From: Candidatus Poribacteria bacterium
GTDB taxonomy: Bacteria; Poribacteria; WGA-4E; WGA-3G
NCBI GenBank assembly: GCA_012271015.1
Contig: JAAXHD010000189.1
Coordinates: forward strand, 45,962 to 99,295
DNA: 53,334 nucleotides
Reading direction: 5' to 3'
In this document: positions 30,924 through 51,591 of the stretch, piece by piece
How the letters are laid out: every line of letters starts with the position of its first letter
Position numbering within the stretch: position 1 is the stretch's first letter
The notes under the pieces: generated by a model
Seen by the model: only the letters and a program-made list of their open reading frames with translations
What the model was told of the DNA's origin: nothing
Database searches by the model: none
Program-made: the position numbers and the translations under genes

Positions 30924-33900
30924 ATGTTGCCCATATCTCGAGCGATTTTCTCTTATTCATATCTATTTTGCTTCTTCATGCTCACGCTGAATCTACCTGT
31001 CCAGCATATAGATGCAGCGGATCATGAAGGCGAAGGAAGCACACCACCTCCAACTGTCAACGGGTCCATTAACAAAGCGCAGACACTGATATTAGGGACA
31101 ACATCAACAGAAACCTTCAGTTTTACAGATGTGTATCATATAGAATTCAGCCTAAATATACCCGGTAATATCGAACTGATCGCCACAGAAGGCAATGTCA
31201 TCACCGTTAGGCTCGAGAAACAAGCACGGGAAACCACAAACACAAAACAGAACGATCTGACCCGCGACTATCTTGATAACATCACCCTCACAGGAACACA
31301 AAGCGATGATACTCTCCAGTTGAGGATACGACTACCGGGTAATTCTCCTGAAGCACAGTTGGGTCCGCCACCTAACCCGGAAAATTTACAAGTTGGGCAC
31401 TATGATGGACTCCAACTGAAATGTACAATTAAAACCCCCGCGGATGTCTCTGTTAAACTCCATACCAAAACCGGAGATATATCCGTTCAACATATCCGTG
31501 GAAAGATAGAAGCCTCGACAGAGAATGGGAACGTCCATTTAGGTGAAACTTCAGGCAATTATAACATCAGTGTGACCAAGGGAAACATTGACGGACAAAT
31601 TTTGCTAACCCAAGGACAAAACAAGTTAGAAACCCAAAATGGCTCAATTGGATTGGTGGTACTTGACCCTGTTGCGGCACCGATGGACATAACCGCGCAA
31701 GGCGGTAGCATCCGTTTACAACTCCCTGAAAATTATGGTGCCGATGTCGAGTTTGAGAGTCAAAAACAGCAAATTGTTGTCAATCTGCCCGCACAATTTG
31801 ATGAGGAAACAGGATTCACCATTATTAACGACGGTGGACCGTTGTTTCGGTTGAAAGCCACAAACACAATTTCACTGCTACCCAGTTCACCGAGCGGCGA
31901 AAAAGCACCCACAGATGCTGGAACGAATTCATTCGTGGATGCTGCTCAACCTGTTCCCCAAATCGTAAAAGCACCCGTTATTGATGGCAATTTATCCGAA
32001 ATCGGATGGCAAGCCGCTGCGCTGCTCTCTCCGTTCCAAAATTCAGATGGCACCGATGTTCCAAGCAATCCAACTGAAACTTTTTTAATGTGGGATGCCG
32101 AGAATTTCTATGTCGGTATAAAGGCGTATGTGTCTGATTCGTTTCTTCCCTACGTTTCACAGACCCAGCAGGATTCACCAATTTGGGAGGACGAGTGCAT
32201 TGAAATTCTGATTGATCCTGACCCGAAAACCGATATCTATTATCACCTTGTTATCAACCCAATTAGTGCATACTTTGATCAGCGTGTTAATACACCGGGA
32301 GAACCCAGTTTCCAGCTTGCCCCTCGTGATATTCAAGCTACTTTGAATCGACAATCGATGCAAACAGCGTTCGATGCAGATAGCACATGGAACTCAGAAG
32401 CGAAAGTTGCCAGTCAAATTAACACGACCTTTTGGAGTCTTGAAGTCGCTCTCCCGCGTAAAACGTTGGAGCCTTCTTCTGAGGTGGATTCGCAGTCGAC
32501 ATCTTCTGTTGAAAGTAGGTGGCTTTTTAACGTCCATCGTAAGTTGTATAGCAGCAATATGAAGAGTCTTATTCCTGCTAAGTCCAGGGAATATAGTTAT
32601 TGGCAGCCGACTTATGATAACGAGTACCCATGGTGGCCCCACTCACCGCATGAGTACGTAGGAGTACTTTCGGGACGTTATGGTCCGGCGATGGGGGTTT
32701 TGGAATTCGTTACGACACCATCCGCTTCTGAAGACTTCGCATCTGAAACGAAAGTGCGGGTTGCAACTATTGAAATTAAAGGGAATACCAAAATTCCAAC
32801 AGAGGTCGTTCAACAGTCCCTTCCCATTCAGCCTGAAGATATTATCACAAGTCCACAACTTTCTTGGTTAATCACAGAGTTGGGAGAACACGGGTGGTTT
32901 CAAGACGTGCGTTTGGAAACGAAGCAGATGGACAGTGGTAGTGAAGAATCAGTCGGCAGTCAGAAACCAGAAGGTCTTGTTTCACCAGACCCTGCTTTAT
33001 CGAAAACCGAAAACCGAAAACCGATAGCCATTCCAAGTATCAGTTTGCATATCCGTGTTACGGAAGTCCCAGTGCTTTTTGCTCAGCAAATTAAAATCGA
33101 AGGGAACAGAAGTTTCCCCTCACGATTCATCAAGGAGTGGTTTCAGTTAGAATCTGGCTACCTCGCTGTCGCGGCTGTTAGACTGAAGCAACAATTAATT
33201 GCTGATTTTTATTTAAATCGTGGATATGAATTCGCCACGGTTGCCTATCAATCCGTCAATGATGTGCTCGAATTTAGCATTGATGAGGGGACACTGCACG
33301 AAATTCGTTTCACTGGAAACAGTCGAATCTCGCGGGTGGAACTGTTATCAGCCCTTGATCTAAAGACTCAGGGCAGTGATGGAGAACGAAGTTCACAAGT
33401 TTCAGATATTTACCATCATTCCCTTGGTCAGTCGCAGATAAACCGCATGCGTAAAGCACTCAGCGAGAACAGTGAGCATTTCAAATCGGTGCGGGATTGG
33501 CGTGTCCAACGCGAGGGCGGAAAAAATGTCATGATTGTCGATATTGAAGAGCAACCCTTCGCGAAACCCGGTGCTTCTCCAATCCTTCAATTCAATCGGG
33601 TTCACGGGTTGATGCTTGGCGCCCGTGGAATGCTCTCGACGCGTCTCACGGGTGAAGAACAGGTTTTCGGTTCAATCAGTCGTGGATTTTCGAGCAAAAT
33701 ATGGAACTATCACGCAGGGGGCGAAAAAGGGCTCTTTAAACGGCAGCTCCTCAAATTGGGAGGGAGTTTTTATAAGGTCACCGATATTAGTTCTAATATA
33801 CATCTACGTCCTGCTGAGATTAGTCTCAGTGCCGCCGGCTACGGTTTCGCCCTTCAAGATTATTACCAACGTCAGGGCGCGCAAGGGTGGATAACTTACG

Positions 33901-34694
33901 CGCCATCAGAATGGACGTATCTCAAACTCGAGTTCACAGCGGAAACGCACGATAATCTTTCTAAATCCACGGATTGGAGTTATTTGTACCGGAATAAACG
34001 CAAGCGGGGTAACCCGCGGATCAATCGTGGACAATTGAGGAGTCTGTCCCTCGTTTATGCGTTTGACACACGGGACCACAGAGCCACGATCACACGGCAT
34101 TTTCATACACTACCTTATGCAAATGAGCGGACCCGTCGCGGATGGCGTGGTCACTTCGCAGTCGAAATAGCAGGGAAATCGGGTTTTGGGGGGGACCACG
34201 CTTTTAATTTTTATCGGTTTGAGTTAGCACGTTACACGCCTTTATCGGGTTCACATCACCTAAACGTTCGGATCGCAGGCGATTTTTCCGATGCCCCCTT
34301 GCCAAGTCAGCGTCTCCTTCATCTCGGTGGCGCTACAACCCTGCGTGGCTATAATTTTAACGTGTTCGCTGGAGATAATCGGCTCCTCCTTAACCTTGAG
34401 TATCGACTCATCAAAGAAGCGATTCGCAGCGGACAAGAAGGAGTAGTCGGGTGGACCCTCAGCTGTTTCTTAGATACAGGGAGTGTGTGGTGGTATGATG
34501 ATGCTCCCTTTTCCGATTTTGAAGATTTCGCGACGCGACTCAAAACATCTGTGGGCATTGGTGGCTCCGTTTTTTGGGACCCGTTCGGCAACCGAGGACC
34601 GTGGAGCCTCGCAGTTGAAGTGGCAGAACCGCTCAGTTCATCTTTTTCCTTACGAGATCCGATCATCATTTTGCGCTTAGAACGTATGTTTTAA
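30924..34694 (+). CDS. Outer-membrane fusion: DUF4097-like, CBM9-like, POTRA and BamA/TamA-type barrel
   Basis: 1256 residues. There is a signal peptide (about 1-32). Residues 50-330 are a beta-rich DUF4097-like region (KTGDISVQHIRGKIEASTENGNVHLGETSG, QGGSIRLQLPENYGADVEF). Residues about 345-600 resemble the CBM9-like/DOMON domain of outer-membrane sugar-binding proteins (APVIDGNLSEIGWQAA, WEDECIEILIDP, WSLEVALPRKTL). Residues about 612-880 hold three POTRA-like units (VATIEIKGNTKIPTEVV; QQIKIEGNRSFPS; EIRFTGNSRISRVELL). The remainder is a 16-strand-type barrel with LRGYNFN as the VRGF-like motif and a terminal Phe. AAGGA lies 11 nt upstream. It may insert or display outer-membrane proteins or bind glycans at the surface. 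The combination of domains is new to me. Confidence 0.75.
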   Translation: MLPISRAIFSYSYLFCFFMLTLNLPVQHIDAADHEGEGSTPPPTVNGSINKAQTLILGTTSTETFSFTDVYHIEFSLNIPGNIELIATEGNVITVRLEKQARETTNTKQNDLTRDYLDNITLTGTQSDDTLQLRIRLPGNSPEAQLGPPPNPENLQVGHYDGLQLKCTIKTPADVSVKLHTKTGDISVQHIRGKIEASTENGNVHLGETSGNYNISVTKGNIDGQILLTQGQNKLETQNGSIGLVVLDPVAAPMDITAQGGSIRLQLPENYGADVEFESQKQQIVVNLPAQFDEETGFTIINDGGPLFRLKATNTISLLPSSPSGEKAPTDAGTNSFVDAAQPVPQIVKAPVIDGNLSEIGWQAAALLSPFQNSDGTDVPSNPTETFLMWDAENFYVGIKAYVSDSFLPYVSQTQQDSPIWEDECIEILIDPDPKTDIYYHLVINPISAYFDQRVNTPGEPSFQLAPRDIQATLNRQSMQTAFDADSTWNSEAKVASQINTTFWSLEVALPRKTLEPSSEVDSQSTSSVESRWLFNVHRKLYSSNMKSLIPAKSREYSYWQPTYDNEYPWWPHSPHEYVGVLSGRYGPAMGVLEFVTTPSASEDFASETKVRVATIEIKGNTKIPTEVVQQSLPIQPEDIITSPQLSWLITELGEHGWFQDVRLETKQMDSGSEESVGSQKPEGLVSPDPALSKTENRKPIAIPSISLHIRVTEVPVLFAQQIKIEGNRSFPSRFIKEWFQLESGYLAVAAVRLKQQLIADFYLNRGYEFATVAYQSVNDVLEFSIDEGTLHEIRFTGNSRISRVELLSALDLKTQGSDGERSSQVSDIYHHSLGQSQINRMRKALSENSEHFKSVRDWRVQREGGKNVMIVDIEEQPFAKPGASPILQFNRVHGLMLGARGMLSTRLTGEEQVFGSISRGFSSKIWNYHAGGEKGLFKRQLLKLGGSFYKVTDISSNIHLRPAEISLSAAGYGFALQDYYQRQGAQGWITYAPSEWTYLKLEFTAETHDNLSKSTDWSYLYRNKRKRGNPRINRGQLRSLSLVYAFDTRDHRATITRHFHTLPYANERTRRGWRGHFAVEIAGKSGFGGDHAFNFYRFELARYTPLSGSHHLNVRIAGDFSDAPLPSQRLLHLGGATTLRGYNFNVFAGDNRLLLNLEYRLIKEAIRSGQEGVVGWTLSCFLDTGSVWWYDDAPFSDFEDFATRLKTSVGIGGSVFWDPFGNRGPWSLAVEVAEPLSSSFSLRDPIIILRLERMF
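32938..33040 (+). repeat. Intergenic-type repeat text inside the BamA-like coding sequence
   Basis: GAATCAGTCGGCAGTCAGAA and a triple CCGAAAA run followed by CCGATAGCC are the words of the abundant intergenic family. Here they encode the linker between the first and second POTRA units (about residues 672-708, KTENRKPIA region), lengthening the protein without breaking the frame. Confidence 0.5.
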
Positions 34695-38387: not shown

Positions 38388-41300
38388 GTGCCAACCCTCA
38401 ACATCAAACCGATACATAAACCCATCAAAAACTACTATACCGAACTTGCGGAATACGCGAAAGTCGGTGCAGAACACGAAGGCGCAGTCCGAACGGCATT
38501 CCAAAATCTACTCCAACATTACTGCCGACAAGCAGATCTCATCCTCGTCTGTGAAAAGACACACCACACGCCACAGAAAAGGCGGATCCGGATAGATGGC
38601 GAAGTCGTTGATGCGTTTGACTTGCCACATGGACACTGGGAAGCAAAAGATACACACGATGACCTTCCGACAGAAGCGCGGAAGAAATTGGAGGCGGGTT
38701 ACCCGTTTAAAAATATCATCGTTCAGTCGCCAACCCGGGCACTCCTCTATCAAAACGGACACCTCCGACTTGATATAGACCTCACAGATCCGAGCAACCT
38801 TATCAATCTGTTGAATACCTTCTTTGCGTACCGGGAAGAAAATATCCTCGATTGGTATGCCGCCGTTGAAGAATTCAAAGAAAAGGTTCCGGTGTTAGGG
38901 CGGGGTGTGGCAAAGCGCATTGAGACCGAAAGGCAGGATAATCCCAGTTCCGACAAGCCTTCGAGAACTTCCATCGGCAATGCCGAGCCTCTATTGATCC
39001 GAACCTCACCGAGGCACAGGTCGAAGAGATGCTCATCCAACACCTTCTCACCGAGCGAATTTTCCGCACAGTCTTTGACAATCCCGATTTTACCAATAGA
39101 AACATCATCGCCCAAGAAATTGAGAAGGTGATTCAGATCCTCACCCGTCGTTCTCCGAGCCGTTCCGAGTTCCTCCGTCCTCTGGATCCGTTCTACGTTG
39201 CGATTGAGAAAACCGCCGCCACCATCACTGATTTCTCACAGAAACAGGCTTTCCTAAATACCGTCTACGAGCAGTTCTTTCAAGGTTTCTCTGTCTATAT
39301 TGCCGATACACACGGTATCGTCTATACACCACAGCCGATCGTGGATTTCATGGTGAAAAGCGTGGAACATGTGCTTGAGACCGAATTCGGACGCTCACTG
39401 TCAAATATGGGTGTTCACATTATCGATCCATTTGTTGGCACTGGTAACTTCATTGTCCGACTCATGCAGGAGATTCGGGGGCGGCGATTGCCGCAGAAAT
39501 ACCGTGAGGAGCTCCACTGCAACGAAGTAATGCTTCTGCCTTACTACATCGCCAGTCTGAACATTGAACACGCCTATTATGAGAGGACCGGCAATTATGA
39601 ACCTTTTCCACATATCTGCTTCGTGGATACGTTTGATACGTTCGGTCTGATGGACGCACCCCACCAAACTGGAGAGTTCACCTATTTTACGCCGGATAAC
39701 ACCTTGCGGGTTGAAGAGCAGCGAGAGATTCCGATGTTCGTTGTTATCGGGAATCCACCCTACAATGCGGGGCAGAAGAATGAGAACGATAATAACAAAA
39801 ATCGGCCGCATGTGGGCATTGATGCGCGGGTACGAGATACTTTTGCTGCTGACTCCAAGGCACAACTGAAAAATTCGCTTTATGATCCGTATGTCAAAGC
39901 CTTTCGATGGGCAATAGATAAACTCGGTGATGTGGGAATCACCGCATTCGTAACGAACAACAGTTTTATTGACGGACAAGCATTTGATGGCATGCGGAAA
40001 CACCTTTCCAAAGAGTTTGACACACTCTATATTCTGGACTTGGGAGGGAATGTACGAAAGGGACAATCAGGAGAGGCTAACGTGTTCGGCATTCAGGTCG
40101 GTGTGAGCATCAACATCCTTGTGAAATCAAAACAGGAGGGTGGGAGTTTTCCTGCGCGAATCTGCTATAACGACGAGGCTGCGGATTTGAATAAGACACG
40201 GACCTTTGCGTTTCTGGACGAGAACCAGTACGTTGGGAACCTGGAGTGGCAAGAGTTGAGACCAGATAAACGGTCTACGTGGCTCACTGGCGGACTCCAC
40301 GGTGATTTTGACTCTTTTATTCCAATGGGAAGCAAATCCGCCAAGGCAACCCAGGGTGCTGCAGACGGAACACTTTTTAAAACCTATAGCGTTGGTGTGC
40401 TAACAGCCCGCGATGCATGGACTTACAACTTCAACCCAGATGCACTCACGAAAAATATGCAAGCGATGATGGAGTTCTACAACTTAGAAGCATCCAGGTG
40501 GGAACGGCGTGTTGAACGAACACATAACGTTGATGCATTTGTTTCAACCGATAGCACGAAAATAAAATGGACAGATCGACTGAAGGTGGAACTAACAAAG
40601 GGCAGATTAATCACCTTTGCGTCGGAACGAATAAGGAATTCTCTTTATCGTCCATTTACAAAGTCCAACCTCTACTTTGATAAATTGATGAACCAGCGGA
40701 CTTACCTGTTTCCATCCATCTTTCCAACACCTGATACCGAATTGGATAATCGCGCGATATGGATCAAGGTTGGACAAGAGTGGCCAATGTTCGCGCTGAT
40801 GGTAGATAAAATTCCTGAAGCCCTACCGCAAGGCGGTTCTCAATGTTTTCCTTTCTATACCTACAATGAAGATGGCACAAATCGCCGTGAAAATGTTACC
40901 GACTGGGCATTGGCACAATTCCGCACGCGTTACCGAGATGACACCATCACTAAGTGGGATATCTTCCACTATACCTACGGGCTCCTACATCATCCCGATT
41001 ATCGCGAGCGGTATCAGGAAAACCTCAAGCGTGATTTACCACATATTCCTTTTGCCGAAGACTTCTGGGGATTTGCCAACGCTGGTGCCCGGTTGGCAGA
41101 CCTTCACGTCAACTACGAATTACAACCCGAATACGATAAACTCAATCCAATAGAAACCCCGGGAATGCAAGTAGATTTGTCCGTGGAGCGGATGAAATTC
41201 TCCAAAGACAAGACGTGTCTGAAATACAACGATTACCTCACGTTAGAGGACATTCCTCTGGAGGCGTTTGATTACCGGCTAGGGAATCGTTCAGCGTTGG

Positions 41301-41464
41301 AATGGGTCGTGGATCAGTATCGTGTAAAGGTAGACAAACGAAGTGGCATTAAGAACGATCCAAATCGTGGGGAAGATCCAGAGTATATCCTCCGTCTCAT
41401 CGGTCAGGTGATCACCATCAGTTTAGAGACAGTAGATACTGTCAACAAATTGCCTGCATTGTAG
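38388..41464 (+). pseudogene. Type ISP-like restriction-modification enzyme, split by a single-base frameshift
   Basis: The GTG at 38388 (GGAG 7 nt upstream) begins a nuclease domain with VDAFDLPHGHWEAKDT (PD-ExK-type site). Near 38950 the frame breaks after GAT AAT CCC AG. One missing base restores FRQAFENFHRQC and TEAQVEEMLIQHLLTERIF in the frame that ends at 41464. That part holds a gamma-type adenine methyltransferase (IIDPFVGTGNF, then IGNPPYNAGQ) and a type ISP C-terminal specificity region (CFPFYTYNEDGTNRRENVTDWAL). No helicase domain lies between nuclease and methylase, so it resembles single-chain ISP/IIG enzymes. As sequenced the methylase half could still be made from 39029 without the nuclease. 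Confidence 0.8.
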
Positions 41465-42680: not shown

Positions 42681-42709
42681 TTGCGATTTTTCACCGTGTG
42701 TGGTATTAT
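42681..42709 (+). promoter_or_regulatory. Promoter of the corrinoid protein gene
   Basis: TTGCGA (42681-42686), a 17-bp spacer and TATTAT (42704-42709), followed by AGGAGG and a GTG start at 42737. An upstream in-frame ATG at 42698 lies inside the -10 region and is unlikely to be used. Confidence 0.55.
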
Positions 42710-42736
42710 TATATCCTTGAGGAGGCATCAAGACTC

Positions 42737-43495
42737 GTGGCATCTATTAATGACATCGCAAATGAATTCATCCGGGAAGAGATCGAAGAATTCTTGGAAG
42801 AACCCGACGAGATAGCACGCACCATTGATATTTTTGCGCAAGCGACTCCTGCTATGCAAACCATCTCTGCTGCCCTCATTGACGGCGACCATCACACTGT
42901 CGATGAATTGACAGAAGCAGCCCTGGAAGAAGGCATAGAGGCATTGGAGATTATGGATGATGGACTCATTGCTGGGATGGGAATCGTTGGCATCAAGTTC
43001 CGAGAAAACTTCATCTTTGTGCCAGAAGTTTTGGCGTGTGCCCGGGCAATGAAGGCAGGGATGGCATATATCGAACCGATTCTTTCGGAGTCAGGTATTG
43101 ATCCTATCGGGACAGTGATTATGGGAACCGTCAAGGGTGATCTACACGATATTGGCAAGAATTTGTGCATCATGATGTTGCGTGGCGCGGGTTTTGTGGT
43201 CCACGATTTAGGGGTGGATACCTCTGAAGATGAGTTCATTGATGCCGTTGAGGAACATGAGGCACCGATCCTCGGGATGTCGGCACTCCTAACGACGACA
43301 ATGCCGAACATGGGGAAAACGATCGATGCCTTTATTGATGAAGACTTGCGGGAAGAAGTCAAGATTATGGTAGGGGGTGCTCCAGTTACACAAACATTCG
43401 CCGATGATATGGGTGCTGACGGGTATGGCAAAGATGCCCTGGCATGTGTCGCACTCGCCAAGCAATTTCTTGAGGAACCGGAGGAAGAGTGGTAG
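42737..43495 (+). CDS. Corrinoid (cobalamin)-binding methyltransferase protein, MtaC/MtbC type
   Basis: 252 residues from the GTG at 42737 (AGGAGG 11 nt upstream). The N-terminal helical cap (residues 1-115) ends in FVPEVLACARAMKAGM. The Rossmann-like B12 domain has Asp135-Leu-His137-Asp-Ile-Gly140 (GDLHDIGKNL, the lower-ligand histidine motif), GFVVHDLGVD, LGMSALLTTTM and a final VGGAPVTQTFADDMGADGY. It shuttles methyl groups between a methyl donor enzyme and an acceptor enzyme. It lies upstream of an Fe-S corrinoid activase and a homocysteine methyltransferase. No donor-side methyltransferase (MttB, MtgB or pterin type) is adjacent. Confidence 0.9.
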   Translation: MASINDIANEFIREEIEEFLEEPDEIARTIDIFAQATPAMQTISAALIDGDHHTVDELTEAALEEGIEALEIMDDGLIAGMGIVGIKFRENFIFVPEVLACARAMKAGMAYIEPILSESGIDPIGTVIMGTVKGDLHDIGKNLCIMMLRGAGFVVHDLGVDTSEDEFIDAVEEHEAPILGMSALLTTTMPNMGKTIDAFIDEDLREEVKIMVGGAPVTQTFADDMGADGYGKDALACVALAKQFLEEPEEEW

Positions 43496-43519
43496 GAAAT
43501 GACTATCAGTTGTCAGGGC

Positions 43520-43537
43520 GGGTTGCTAACGCAACCC
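43520..43537. repeat. GGGTTGC-TAAC-GCAACCC palindrome
   Basis: Second copy of the palindrome at 23441-23457, embedded in the CAGTTGTCAG-type repeat between the corrinoid and activase genes. Confidence 0.45.
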
Positions 43538-43627
43538 TATTAGTCGTCAGCATAAAGCGTTTGAGTTAACCAAAGCCCTTTTTACTGACTTCCAATAGCC
43601 GATAGCCGATGGCTCAAAAATAAAAAT

Positions 43628-45523
43628 ATGAAGAAAATAGACAAAGCCGAATACGAGAAACGACTCAATAAAATCACACAAATTTTTGAAGATTTGGTTG
43701 TTCACGCCGATGAACAAGCCACTTACCGGTGTCCCTACAAAAATCGCTTTGACCACTGCACAGCGAAGTTCGGTTGCCGAAACCAGCGAAAGATTGATGA
43801 AGGGACAGGGCTTTTGTGTGTCGGAGACGACAAGTTAGATTATCGCAGCGCGTGGGAGACTGACGCGCCTGACCCGACATCAGAAACACACAGCACCGGC
43901 ACAATTACGTGTGACGGAAAAGCTTACCAACTCACCCCTGGGAAAACTATTTTTGACTACGCAGACGACTTAACCGTCCAAGTACCCACCTCCTGTTTCC
44001 GAACTGGACAGTGCCACGAATGTATCGTTGAGATTAAGCGTGGTATGGACAGTCTTCGCCGCCCAAATGAAGCAGAAGCCTTCCTTCGAGACAACTACCG
44101 TCTCGCCTGCCAAGCAATTGTTCTTGATATTGACAAAGACATCGAGTTCACACCACTGCGACGCTCACCAAGGATCCTGACACACGCTACCACGACGGAC
44201 AGTAGTGGGCCCGGATTGGATCCACGCGTTACGCATCGCGATGGCGTTGTCTACTACAACAATGAGTCTATTGACCGTTACCGCGGGCATCTTTATGGAC
44301 TCGCTTTGGATATCGGAACAACGACAGTGGTGGCAAATCTGGTGGATTTAGAGAGCGGAAAAACGGTTTCTGTCAGTTCCTTTGAAAACCCACAACGTTT
44401 TGGCGGTAGCGATATTATGAATCGCATCAGCTACGACGGTGAATTCAAAGGCGAACTGCGTCGCTCGTTGATTGCCGCACTCAACAGCGAAATCATGGAG
44501 ATGTGTGAACGCCACAACTTCGTCCGCCAAGAGATTTATGAAATCGTCGTTGCTGGGAACACAACAATGCGCGATATCTTCTTCAAACATGACGTTCAGA
44601 GTATTGGACAGAAGCCGTATAAATCACTGATTGAACATGAGTATCGGGAAGGGACCCGCTCAACCACTTCGCTCACTGAAAAAGTGCGTCGTTTAGGTCT
44701 CCGTGCGAATCCGAAGGCGATGGTCTATAGCCTGCCGTTGATCGCTAGTCATGTTGGGGCAGATGTTGCCGCGGATTTAGTCTCTATCGACATCCCCGCA
44801 CAAGATGAGATCATTATGTTGGTTGATGTCGGGACAAACACAGAAGTGGTCGTCGGAAACGCGAAACGGATGGTCGCGGCATCATGTCCGGCTGGTCCTG
44901 CTTTTGAAGGGGGCGGCATTGAATACGGAATGCCTGCTTACCCGGGTGCTATTGAGTCTGTGAAGTGGAACGACAGTCAATTCGATTATGAGACGATTAG
45001 TGGTGAGACACCAGAGGGGTTATGCGGTTCTGGGTTGATTTCGCTTCTCGCTGAGCTACGTCGGAATAATCAGATGAGTCCAAAGGGCGTTTTTGAGGAC
45101 AGAAAACAACGCGTTATGTCTCTCTTGCCGGAACACGGTATCACCTTCTCACGTGATGATGCAAGTAACTTGGCACAAGCAAAGGCGGCAAATTACTGTG
45201 GACAATATATCGTTCTGCGGCACTTCGGCTGCGTTCCAAAAGACATTACGAAACTCTTTCTGGCAGGTGGTTTTGCCAATTATGTTAATCTACAAGACGC
45301 TATTGAAATCGGATTTCTCGCACCGGTTCCAGAAGCAAATGTCGTCAAGATTGGTAATGCCGCGGTCGCAGGTGCGACAGCTGTCCTGCTTTCTGAGAAA
45401 AAACGCGCAGATATTGAAGCGTTTGTCAACAATATTGAGCATATTGAGTTGGAGACAACCCCCGATTTCTTTGAGGTATTCGTGGAAGGTTGTCAATTCA
45501 AGCCAATGCCAGCAACCTTGTAA
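43628..45523 (+). CDS. Ferredoxin-ASKHA reductive activator of corrinoid proteins (RACo/RamA-like) with N-terminal Cys cluster
   Basis: 631 residues. Residues 92-170 are a [2Fe-2S] ferredoxin domain with Cys123, Cys129, Cys132 and Cys161. From about 215 an ASKHA ATPase-like domain follows (GLALDIGTTTVVANLVDL, VVAGNTTMRD, LVDVGTNTEVVVGN, GGGIEYGMPA, LAGGFANYV), the DUF4445 arrangement of activators that reduce Co(II) corrinoid to Co(I). The first 65 residues carry another set, Cys35, Cys44, Cys50 and Cys64, possibly a second metal centre not usual in RACo. No ribosome site is obvious before the ATG. It lies 132 nt after the corrinoid gene. Confidence 0.88.
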   Translation: MKKIDKAEYEKRLNKITQIFEDLVVHADEQATYRCPYKNRFDHCTAKFGCRNQRKIDEGTGLLCVGDDKLDYRSAWETDAPDPTSETHSTGTITCDGKAYQLTPGKTIFDYADDLTVQVPTSCFRTGQCHECIVEIKRGMDSLRRPNEAEAFLRDNYRLACQAIVLDIDKDIEFTPLRRSPRILTHATTTDSSGPGLDPRVTHRDGVVYYNNESIDRYRGHLYGLALDIGTTTVVANLVDLESGKTVSVSSFENPQRFGGSDIMNRISYDGEFKGELRRSLIAALNSEIMEMCERHNFVRQEIYEIVVAGNTTMRDIFFKHDVQSIGQKPYKSLIEHEYREGTRSTTSLTEKVRRLGLRANPKAMVYSLPLIASHVGADVAADLVSIDIPAQDEIIMLVDVGTNTEVVVGNAKRMVAASCPAGPAFEGGGIEYGMPAYPGAIESVKWNDSQFDYETISGETPEGLCGSGLISLLAELRRNNQMSPKGVFEDRKQRVMSLLPEHGITFSRDDASNLAQAKAANYCGQYIVLRHFGCVPKDITKLFLAGGFANYVNLQDAIEIGFLAPVPEANVVKIGNAAVAGATAVLLSEKKRADIEAFVNNIEHIELETTPDFFEVFVEGCQFKPMPATL

Positions 45524-45602
45524 TTGGCAGTCGGTTGTCAGTTCTCGGTTAAGAGACTTTCGGCTCACAATAAAGGGATCTTCTTGAGATAGCCTCAAAA
45601 CC

Positions 45603-45835
45603 CATAGCCCGTAATGAAATTAGGTTTCCTTACCGCAAGGTAAAATTAAAATATTTCTTCGATCTTTACAGGATTATAGGTTTCCAGGATAATCCTAAGC
45701 ACATAGCCCGTAATGAAATTATGCCTTAAATGGCATAATTTGTCTTTGCTTTACATTTGGAGGGCGGACATACGGAGAGGAACGTGAAACCATCAGTACA
45801 CCTCACCGAACCGCAAGGTAAAATTAAAATATTTC
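45603..45835 (+). repeat. Locally duplicated leader with hairpin before the homocysteine methyltransferase
   Basis: CATAGCCCGTAATGAAATTA occurs exactly at 45603-45622 and 45702-45721. A 25-bp word beginning CCGCAAGGTAAAATTAAAAT occurs exactly at 45633 and 45811. Between them lies a perfect hairpin AAATTATGCC-TTAAAT-GGCATAATTT (45716-45741). The second part (45761-45828) is the dispersed leader repeat. Confidence 0.65.
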
Positions 45836-46833
45836 GAGAACGTTTGAGGTCCGAGGAACCGATTTTATACGACGGCGGATTCGGTTCGCAGTTATTCGCA
45901 CGGGATATAGAGCTCGCCAATAGTGCCCTCGCCAACGCTCTACATCCCACTGCTGTCATTGACATTCATTCGGATTATATCAACGCAGGTGCTGAGGCGA
46001 TCGGGACAAACACGTTTGTGGCATCTCCGCTTCACTTGGAGATGGCAGGTCAAGACCTATCCGATGCCAAACGACTCATACGACTCGCTGTCCAACACGC
46101 AAAAACAGCCGTTGCCCAGAGTGGACAAGATGTCTACATTGCTGGCTCTGTGGGACCCTCTCCCGGCGCGATTGAAGCCGATAGCGGCGATACCACTTTC
46201 GGCATTCCAAATGAAGATGCGAAAGAGGCGCATAAATTGGTTATCCACACCCTCGCAGAAGAAGGCGTGGATTTCCTCTGCCTCGAAACGATGTTCTCTG
46301 CGAAAGAAGCCGCGATGGCTGTAGACGTTGCCCGCGAGACAGGAATCCCTATTGCTGTGAACATGACTTACAAATGGACAAAGGAACGGCGCACCGGCAA
46401 GGTTATCTACCGAACAGACTGGGGAAATTCACCAACGGATCTGCTCGATATTCTCATGAACAACGAACTTTCGGATGGAGATTCGCTGTTGGAATCCGTG
46501 AGTATCCTCGGCGTGAACTGCGGTGCTGAATCCAGACGTGATGAACATACTGGGATGCCTTATGCGATTGCTGGAACCCAGCAGTTGCACACAGCACTCA
46601 CCGAAGTAGGCATTGATGGTAAACAGATGATGGCATATCCCAACGCTGGCATGCCGAAGCTTGATGAAAACCATCAAACTGTCTATACGCAGACCCCAAC
46701 AGAAATGGCAGGCTATGTTCCCACACTCCTTGAGGCGGGGGCTTACTTAATAGGCGGCTGTTGTGGAACAACGCCAGCACATATCAAAGCCTTCCGCGAA
46801 GCAATCGCGTCGTATCGTTCAACAGAAGCGTAA
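45784..46833 (+). CDS. Homocysteine S-methyltransferase family protein
   Basis: 349 residues. The barrel shows EPILYDGGFGSQLFARDIEL, INAGAEAIGTNTFVASP, GSVGPSPGAIEADSG and LCLETMFSAKEA. The zinc-site cysteines are in LGVNCGAESR and GGCCGTTPAHIKA. It methylates homocysteine to methionine, using a methyl-corrinoid protein or another donor. With the upstream corrinoid protein and activase it forms the acceptor side of a split B12 methyl-transfer system like the Hcy module of MetH. I chose the GTG at 45784 (GGAG 6 nt upstream). The first 15 residues (KPSVHLTEPQGKIK) are encoded by the leader repeat. The place where an ATG would be expected reads ATA (45829). Confidence 0.85.
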   Translation: MKPSVHLTEPQGKIKIFRERLRSEEPILYDGGFGSQLFARDIELANSALANALHPTAVIDIHSDYINAGAEAIGTNTFVASPLHLEMAGQDLSDAKRLIRLAVQHAKTAVAQSGQDVYIAGSVGPSPGAIEADSGDTTFGIPNEDAKEAHKLVIHTLAEEGVDFLCLETMFSAKEAAMAVDVARETGIPIAVNMTYKWTKERRTGKVIYRTDWGNSPTDLLDILMNNELSDGDSLLESVSILGVNCGAESRRDEHTGMPYAIAGTQQLHTALTEVGIDGKQMMAYPNAGMPKLDENHQTVYTQTPTEMAGYVPTLLEAGAYLIGGCCGTTPAHIKAFREAIASYRSTEA

Positions 46834-49775: not shown

Positions 49776-50342
49776 ATGTCTAACGAACGTGAAGCCCAGA
49801 AAGAAATCCGTCAGATTCTGAGGCTATTAGAAATGACTGCACGCATCATAGAAACTTCAGCGATTACAGACCAATTTTCAGGTGGTGAAGAGCGGTGCGC
49901 TCGGCAATTTAACAACGCACTTGAACTCCTAACCGATCTTGGTGCAGTACCCGAGGGTCTTTTTGAACCTCTGGAGTCCGATGAGGCATCTCTTGGCGAT
50001 ACCTGCTTTGCCTGTCACCAAGTCGCCGCTTACGTTAAAGAAAGTTGCGCCGATGATTTTGTTGACTTCGCACAAGTCAAGCAAACAATTGGTAATGAGT
50101 TGAAGGATGTCAGTGAAGTTGTGCGGCAATCAATGCCTTCCTTTCTCAAAGATATTTGGGGCAGCCAAACGCAAGAAGATAACGCTGGAGCCCCTGAAAC
50201 CGTTGAGGTGGTCTCAGACGAGGATGAGGACGTGACGTCTGTCGAACAGCGTATCGCCAAGCTTGAAGGGCAAATGGAGACCGTTGTCGAGATACTCCAA
50301 GAGATTCGGACACAACAGGTCGAACAGAGCAAAGAACTTTAG
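49776..50342 (+). CDS. Unknown soluble protein with C-terminal coiled coil
   Basis: 188 residues, not recognised. The N-terminal two thirds are helical (EIRQILRLLEMTARIIETSA, ARQFNNALELLTDLGAVPEGLF) with a lone CFACHQ motif near residue 76 (two cysteines and a histidine, too short for a known site). It then has an acidic stretch (VEVVSDEDEDVTSVEQRI) and a heptad-like coiled coil (IAKLEGQMETVVEILQEIRTQ). No signal peptide or membrane segment is seen. The start is good: AGGAG 6 nt before the ATG. It lies 107 nt ahead of the DUF4097 gene and may share its transcript. Confidence 0.65.
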   Translation: MSNEREAQKEIRQILRLLEMTARIIETSAITDQFSGGEERCARQFNNALELLTDLGAVPEGLFEPLESDEASLGDTCFACHQVAAYVKESCADDFVDFAQVKQTIGNELKDVSEVVRQSMPSFLKDIWGSQTQEDNAGAPETVEVVSDEDEDVTSVEQRIAKLEGQMETVVEILQEIRTQQVEQSKEL

Positions 50343-50449
50343 AATAGGAGACAGCCATCAGCGATCAGCAAAAGAGTTACCTCACAGTGAGAGTTCACCA
50401 AAAAACCGCTTGCCTGAAAGTCTATCGTCGATGGCTGATAGTCAATTTG

Positions 50450-51591
50450 ATGAAACTACTTATCGTGTTGACCCTTTTTTTTCGGTGCTGTTTCTATTCT
50501 GCAGTGCTGGTTGCCAATTCACATCACTGGCAGCAGAGGAATCTATCTTGGAAAAGATTGAAAAAACATATAACGTCAAGGCTGGTGGAAGTTTAACAAT
50601 TGTGTCAGAGTTCGGGGCAATTGAAATTCAAACCACCGAACAGGATAAGGTTGAGATTGTGGTCACAAAAGCAGCAAAGTCCTTGAAGCGATCGGCGAAA
50701 GAAGCACTTGCTGATTTTGAGGTAGCATTCTCGCCCGAAAATATCGGAGCCCCTACATTTGGACAGGAGGATGATACTCCTGATTATTTGTCAGTTGTGC
50801 CCGAGGATGCCGATGTTTATATTCAAGGGAAGTTCAAACATGGGAGAGAACGCTGGCGGAAAATACTCAATCGCTTGGAAATTCGTTTTCACGTAACGGT
50901 TCCCAAAAACTATAACGTTGATTTGAGTACCCAAGGCGGTAGCATCAAAGTCGGCGATCTTGATGGTACGGTTCGCGCCCACACTTCGGGAGGAAGTTTA
51001 CGTTTCGGGAACATTACAGGCACGGTGTGGGGACGGACATCCGGTGGCAGCATCAAACTTACATCGTGTGGCAGTCCAGTCGATCTGAAAACGTCTGGCG
51101 GTAGTATTGAAGTCGTTGACGTGGCCGGGGATGTTCAAGCACAAACTTCTGGAGGCAGTCTCCGCTTTGGTGCAATTCAGGGTTCTATTTGGGGCAAAAC
51201 TTCAGGTGGGAGCATCAAGATTGCGAGTTGTAGTGGAGGTGCGGATGTTCAGAGCTCGGGCGGTAGTATTAGACTGGAGAGCATTGGCGGGAATGTAAAC
51301 GCGAAAACCTCAGGAGGTATCATCCGTGCCACTATGACAACACAACCGCAGGATGAGTGTAATTTGCGCACATCGGGAGGCGGAATAACTCTCACGCTTA
51401 TTCCAGATATCGCCGTTGACGTAGAAGCAGAGACCAGCGGTGGGCGCGTTTCGACGGATTTCGCAGTCGAATCGGCCATCCAGGGGAAGGTTCCCAGAAA
51501 TAGATTGAAAGGTAGCATAAATGGCGGCGGACCCCTGCTAAAATTACGCACCTCTGGTGGTAGCATTCGCTTGCAGAAGGCGGCAGATTAA
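50450..51591 (+). pseudogene. DUF4097-family beta-helix lipoprotein, signal peptide split by a poly-T frameshift
   Basis: From about residue 30 the protein is a clean DUF4097 family member: YNVKAGGSLTIVSEFGAIEI, then about ten repeats of (T/S)SGG(S/G/I/R)(I/L/V) spaced 17-30 residues apart, forming a surface-exposed beta-helix. The signal peptide is in two frames. ATG 50450 gives MKLLIVLTLFF, and after the eight-T run (50475-50482) the other frame gives SVLFLFCSAGC, a lipobox. One extra T would join them into a perfect lipoprotein leader. Without it the only upstream start in the main frame is ATG 50431 (MADSQFDETTY), which makes a poor export signal. It could be pseudogenised, phase-variable or a sequencing error. 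It is related in style to residues 50-330 of the fusion at 30924. Confidence 0.7.

Follow-up and report, generated by a model that had tools for sequence, protein, structure and literature searches.

The toastrack-Omp85 gene and its surroundings

The window (the whole 53,334-nucleotide stretch of DNA analyzed here) comes from the Poribacteria, a phylum of sponge symbionts, and contains a long open reading frame of 1256 aa with zero internal stops, whose product combines a DUF4097/toastrack domain, a CBM9-like domain, three POTRAs and a C-terminal barrel of the Omp85 type (Table 1). Omp85 proteins are core machines of outer-membrane biogenesis. Within POTRA1, the alignment of orthologs revealed an insert of variable length at approximately aa 668-708.

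Table 1. Coordinates in the window of the 1256-aa fusion protein, its domains and residues of interest, and a second toastrack gene.
Feature	Positions	Strand	Basis or remark
Whole gene: toastrack, CBM9-like, three POTRAs, Omp85 barrel	30924..34694	+	single frame kept across Poribacteria
Predicted Sec signal peptide, aa 1-31, ending in QHIDA before ADHE, without lipobox	30924..31016	+	read by eye; start conserved in the genus
DUF4097/toastrack domain, aa 58-318, glycine every 9 residues	31095..31877	+	Pfam and fold match
CBM9-like domain, aa 346-598	31959..32717	+	PF06452 above cut-off; profile match to 1i82
Trp421, aligned with CBM9 clamp Trp71	32184..32186	+	W in 27/31 orthologs
Trp571, in the loop of CBM9 clamp Trp175, alignment shifted by one residue	32634..32636	+	W in 27/31 orthologs
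POTRA1, aa 608-715	32745..33068	+	PF07244/PF08478, PDB profile, alignment
POTRA2, aa 716-790	33069..33293	+	PF07244
POTRA3, aa 791-878	33294..33557	+	POTRA_1 match, same place in ortholog L074; ortholog L077 with three POTRA stretches (Pfam)
Omp85 barrel, aa 883-1256	33570..34691	+	PF01103; TamA barrels in PDB; motifs
Second toastrack protein, separate gene outside the fusion	50263..51591	+	87.7 bits to the family toastrack profile

Based on Pfam profiles, sequences assigned to POTRA (PF07244; 59.3 bits, 6e-16, in two stretches), Omp85 (PF01103; 29.6 bits against a cut-off of 24, 6e-7, with orthologs reaching up to 66 bits) and CBM9_1 (PF06452; 28.8 bits against a cut-off of 23.4, 1.4e-6) were detected above their cut-offs, and DUF4097 fell just below its own (21.9 and 22.9 bits, respectively). 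The latter scored well above cut-off in divergent orthologs, one of which carried DUF4097, CBM9_1, POTRA and Omp85 in one frame (L074; 38.3 bits for DUF4097) and another DUF4097, CBM9_1 and POTRA (L077; 38.1 bits). Among solved structures, the family profile recognized T. maritima CBM9-2 (1i82; 6e-9), a stretch of three BamA POTRAs (best value 1e-28) and TamA barrels (4e-10), this last match corresponding to the C-terminal barrel half. Two motifs of the barrel, LRGY in loop 6 (aa 1140) and FxDxG (FLDTG, aa 1182), were nearly invariant in the alignment. The DUF4097-like region, the CBM9-like domain and the POTRA units proposed in a first-pass annotation of the sequence were thus all recovered, the number of POTRAs being three.

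Structure prediction, suggested in that annotation as a check, supported the toastrack fold only. This region was modelled by AlphaFold with pLDDT values mostly between 75 and 90, and the model resembled solved putative adhesins and their relatives (3lyc, 3pet, 4qrk, 3ljy and 4opw; Z 14-15.5). The prediction for aa 60-1256 with seven close sequences (mean pLDDT 34.5) was confident in the toastrack alone, with values of approximately 20 in the barrel, and the CBM9 domain predicted alone reached 28; given the low values for CBM9, POTRAs and barrel, no fold claim made here rests on those models.

A second DUF4097 protein had been placed at 50450-51591, where position 50450 is a plausible later start of the gene listed in Table 1. 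It is a stand-alone protein with approximately 12 toastrack-like GGSI repeats, missed by Pfam and recognized by the family toastrack profile. The window also holds a Type ISP restriction-modification enzyme (39029-41464), whose C-terminal specificity domain was matched at 4e-98 and which is immediately preceded by an ORF of 280 aa, and a corrinoid methyl-transfer cluster (42698-46833) in which genes for a B12-binding protein, a RACo-type corrinoid activator and a homocysteine S-methyltransferase-like protein lie in a row. Immediately beyond the right end of the window, a BatA/VWA gene lies next to the gene of a divergent 731-aa POTRA protein (L069:5681-10169).

Conservation of the fusion and its short form

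Matches were found in 83 of the 84 Poribacteria genomes, and an unbroken frame of at least 1000 aa was present in at least 71 of the 84 (counted by hand from the table of matches), in both sampled classes and including closed chromosomes, with G023, G046, G079, G081, G082 and G083 as the single-contig genomes. Orthologs from beyond the class of the window (genomes G001 and G002) were full length, with CBM9, POTRA and Omp85 kept according to Pfam; DUF4097 exceeded its cut-off in the G001 copy (L074), and in the G002 copy (L073) Pfam did not detect it, although the alignment still spans the region. Values of dN/dS ranged from 0.05 to 0.31 across every domain, and purifying selection acts on all of them. 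Together with the intact frame in the window, these results sustain the earlier view of one 1256-residue single-chain fusion. A chimeric assembly, or two genes joined through a lost stop codon, would be in line with the mosaic pattern of the window copy, in which the barrel third has diverged further from the closest relatives than the remainder has, but the same fusion, continuous in frame, recurs in dozens of independent genomes, single-contig ones included, which excludes the artefact for practical purposes.

In the mosaic region itself (33450-34694), the barrel third was approximately 80% identical to all relatives and the upstream two thirds approximately 90% identical to one of them (L009), the synonymous divergence to which jumped from approximately 0.3 to 1.0 at the barrel third. 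The pattern is suggestive of recombination within the gene involving a lineage absent from the sample, or else of a mosaic assembly.

The ortholog of one poribacterial family (f4; three genomes, two genera) was shorter, with 650-695 aa. In this form the toastrack extends to approximately residue 334 of the query and is followed directly by the barrel from approximately residue 872, the CBM9 and POTRA block being exactly missing and neither domain detected by Pfam. The f4 barrels nested inside the family in the barrel tree, and as all deeper lineages sampled carry the long form, the loss of the block in f4 is the simpler reading, on a tree rooting too weak for proof.

Outside the phylum, the full profile was run against 80 non-Poribacteria genomes, a small sample of which 57 were CBM9-positive, and yielded no toastrack and barrel in one frame among the matches listed. 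The single contig profile scan reaches close relatives only; no relatives were found in viral contigs, and plasmids gave single-domain matches only. In the literature searched, no published account of DUF4097 with Omp85, of Omp85 with Poribacteria or of POTRA with CBM9 was found, nor any paper on DUF5686.

Place of the protein within the Omp85 superfamily

At least eight Omp85-type proteins were found in the same genome, including a separate BamA with five POTRAs (C84; 410 bits to the NCBIfam BamA model). The 1256-aa protein scored 63.1 bits against the BamA equivalog (cut-off 297) and 14.7 bits against TamA (cut-off 625). An identity as BamA was rejected based on this score, on the presence of three POTRAs instead of five and on the occurrence of the genome's own BamA, and an identity as TamA was rejected on its score. 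In the barrel tree, the family formed one clade (support 95/91), and a larger group, in which it is joined by the C239 paralogs and by Omp85 proteins of other phyla without POTRAs, was split from BamA and its kin (96/98), a separation to be read with caution on account of long branches. The description of the barrel as BamA-type therefore holds at the superfamily level, and not for BamA proper.

The nearest barrels outside the phylum were those of POTRA-less Omp85 proteins with a bactofilin-like N-terminal solenoid. The family links POTRA-bearing Omp85 to POTRA-less solenoid-barrel proteins. In several of these relatives, the solenoid was recognized by weak Pfam matches together with repeats seen by eye. 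Four such proteins from other phyla (L084, L086, L087 and L088), with an Omp85 barrel and the solenoid N-terminal to it, possibly represent an undescribed solenoid-barrel class.

Three further loci carried Omp85 proteins of other architectures: two tandem paralogs (659 and 823 aa) with unassigned N-terminal domains and a DUF4159 gene between them (L068:1720-8245); a 1076-aa frame joining Peptidase-MA, a PD40 propeller and Omp85, like the published WD40-Omp85 class (L067:1397-4624); and a 1140-aa protein with 4 POTRA stretches, located directly behind an ORF that appeared TamB-like by eye (L065:1728-6501).

According to the available portion of the survey of Heinz and Lithgow (2014, PMC4104836), Omp85 comprises ten classes, including patatin, WD40, metallophosphatase, lipoprotein and noNterm, and a toastrack or CBM9 class was not encountered in that portion. 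Within the literature searched, the combination of toastrack, CBM9, POTRA and Omp85 thus appears undescribed and matches no published Omp85 class found.

Possible glycan binding, probable location of the arm and proposed role

In CBM9 modules the sugar is clamped by a pair of aromatic side chains, which in T. maritima CBM9-2 are those of Trp71 and Trp175 (PMC8280721). As judged from the alignment (Table 1), both tryptophans of this clamp are probably retained in the poribacterial protein. In four DUF5916-type CBM9 domains from the same genome (two of them Pfam-checked), the first Trp occurred in two and the second in none, within the aligned part; relative to these domains, the probable retention of the clamp favours glycan binding without proving it, and we hold with moderate confidence that the CBM9 domain may bind a glycan. 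Many CBM9-like folds function with no sugar ligand known for them, and the f4 form, devoid of CBM9 and POTRAs, indicates that glycan binding is not required everywhere. Recruitment of a substrate or glycan by the N-terminal arm, as suggested earlier, is possible.

With a probability of roughly one half, we regard the protein as an accessory Omp85, neither BamA nor TamA, in which the CBM9 domain of a long periplasmic arm would bind an envelope or substrate glycan. The C-terminal barrel would be seated in the outer membrane, and the three POTRAs, the CBM9-like beta-sandwich and the toastrack solenoid would extend from it into the periplasm; the aromatic clamp may hold or sense a glycan, for which peptidoglycan, a glycolipid or a glycosylated client are the natural candidates since the arm is predicted to be periplasmic; the arm may bring this glycan close to the POTRAs and barrel, or anchor the protein there; and the POTRA/barrel part might insert or pass a dedicated client. 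For this last activity the case is weak. Among the ortholog loci compared, no gene neighbourhood conserved beyond the genus hinted at a client, and the downstream GcvT/YgfZ-like gene, kept in the genus and at one locus of family f2 only, provides no functional hint.

The POTRAs and the loop-6 LRGY motif, which serve client handling in other Omp85 proteins, are kept, and this speaks against a purely structural role, in which the barrel would be a mere anchor and the arm would bind the cell wall, the protein acting as an outer membrane-to-peptidoglycan tether or envelope spacer. Such a role would be compatible with the retained clamp tryptophans and with the POTRA-less solenoid and barrel forms of f4 and other phyla, which imply that a translocation function is not obligatory and would accommodate a tether or scaffold; we consider it unlikely, yet the best of the alternatives. 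Somewhat more doubtful is the further-reaching proposal that the family constitutes a new, phylum-fixed Omp85 subfamily, in which CBM9 and POTRAs were inserted between the two halves of a solenoid-barrel core common to it and the POTRA-less proteins of other phyla, and which would assemble or export glycosylated clients at the outer membrane in a glycan-gated or glycan-guided manner. The coexistence of a phylum-wide single-chain Omp85 and an f4 relative without the CBM9-POTRA block makes the contributions of the POTRAs and of the glycan-binding domain testable.

The first-pass annotation had also envisaged N-terminal domains that are displayed, in a two-partner-like or autotransport scheme. 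In a type Vd-like autotransporter, toastrack and CBM9 would cross their own barrel and be displayed to bind glycans of the sponge; the type Vd order of N-terminal domain, POTRA and Omp85 barrel in one chain is indeed present and is also that of PlpD, the toastrack is solenoid-like by its fold match, as are many exported passengers, and the hosts are sponge-associated. Patatin, searched with Pfam, had no match in the protein. However, the distance from the last CBM9 strand to the first conserved POTRA strand was 8-25 residues across the phylum and 20-21 in the genus, part of which is already POTRA strand. POTRA1 is the POTRA furthest from the membrane, and an extended chain covers approximately 3.4 angstrom per residue, so the free linker would be too short to lead from POTRA1 through the barrel with the POTRAs left behind. 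Moreover, the N-terminal domains are under purifying rather than diversifying selection, and PlpD, formerly held as the model for N-terminal export and the one tested protein with a cargo ahead of POTRA and barrel, has an N-terminal domain shown to be periplasmic (PMC11116518). The linker length and the PlpD precedent make display quite improbable. Linker lengths, known Omp85 geometry and this precedent argue strongly that the toastrack-CBM9-POTRA arm would lie in the periplasm, and the protein most likely stays within the cell envelope, without surface display.

When compared with known systems, the accessory Omp85 protein proposed here shares with BamA a POTRA chain, supported by POTRA profile matches, and an Omp85 barrel, but has three POTRAs instead of five and additional domains. 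With TamA it shares the number of POTRAs and a C-terminal barrel half that matches the solved structure, while it differs in its extra N-terminal domains and in that no TamB-like neighbour was seen at its locus. The patatin-Omp85 proteins PlpD and FplA likewise join an N-terminal non-POTRA domain, POTRA and barrel in one chain, although with a patatin lipase and one POTRA in place of toastrack, CBM9 and three POTRAs. Non-POTRA N-terminal domains, but other ones, also occur in the WD40- and metallophosphatase-Omp85 classes, as given in the available portion of the survey (PMC4104836). The CBM9 and DUF5916 proteins of the same genome carry a CBM9-like domain resembling the one described here, followed by a DUF5916 region where the Omp85 barrel would be, and lack POTRAs and toastrack. 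Finally, the POTRA-less Omp85 proteins with a DUF5686-like barrel (L084, L086-L088) resemble the poribacterial protein in carrying a beta-solenoid N-terminal to a related barrel, and differ from it in lacking POTRA and CBM9 and in the solenoid itself, which is bactofilin-like in the former and a toastrack in the latter.
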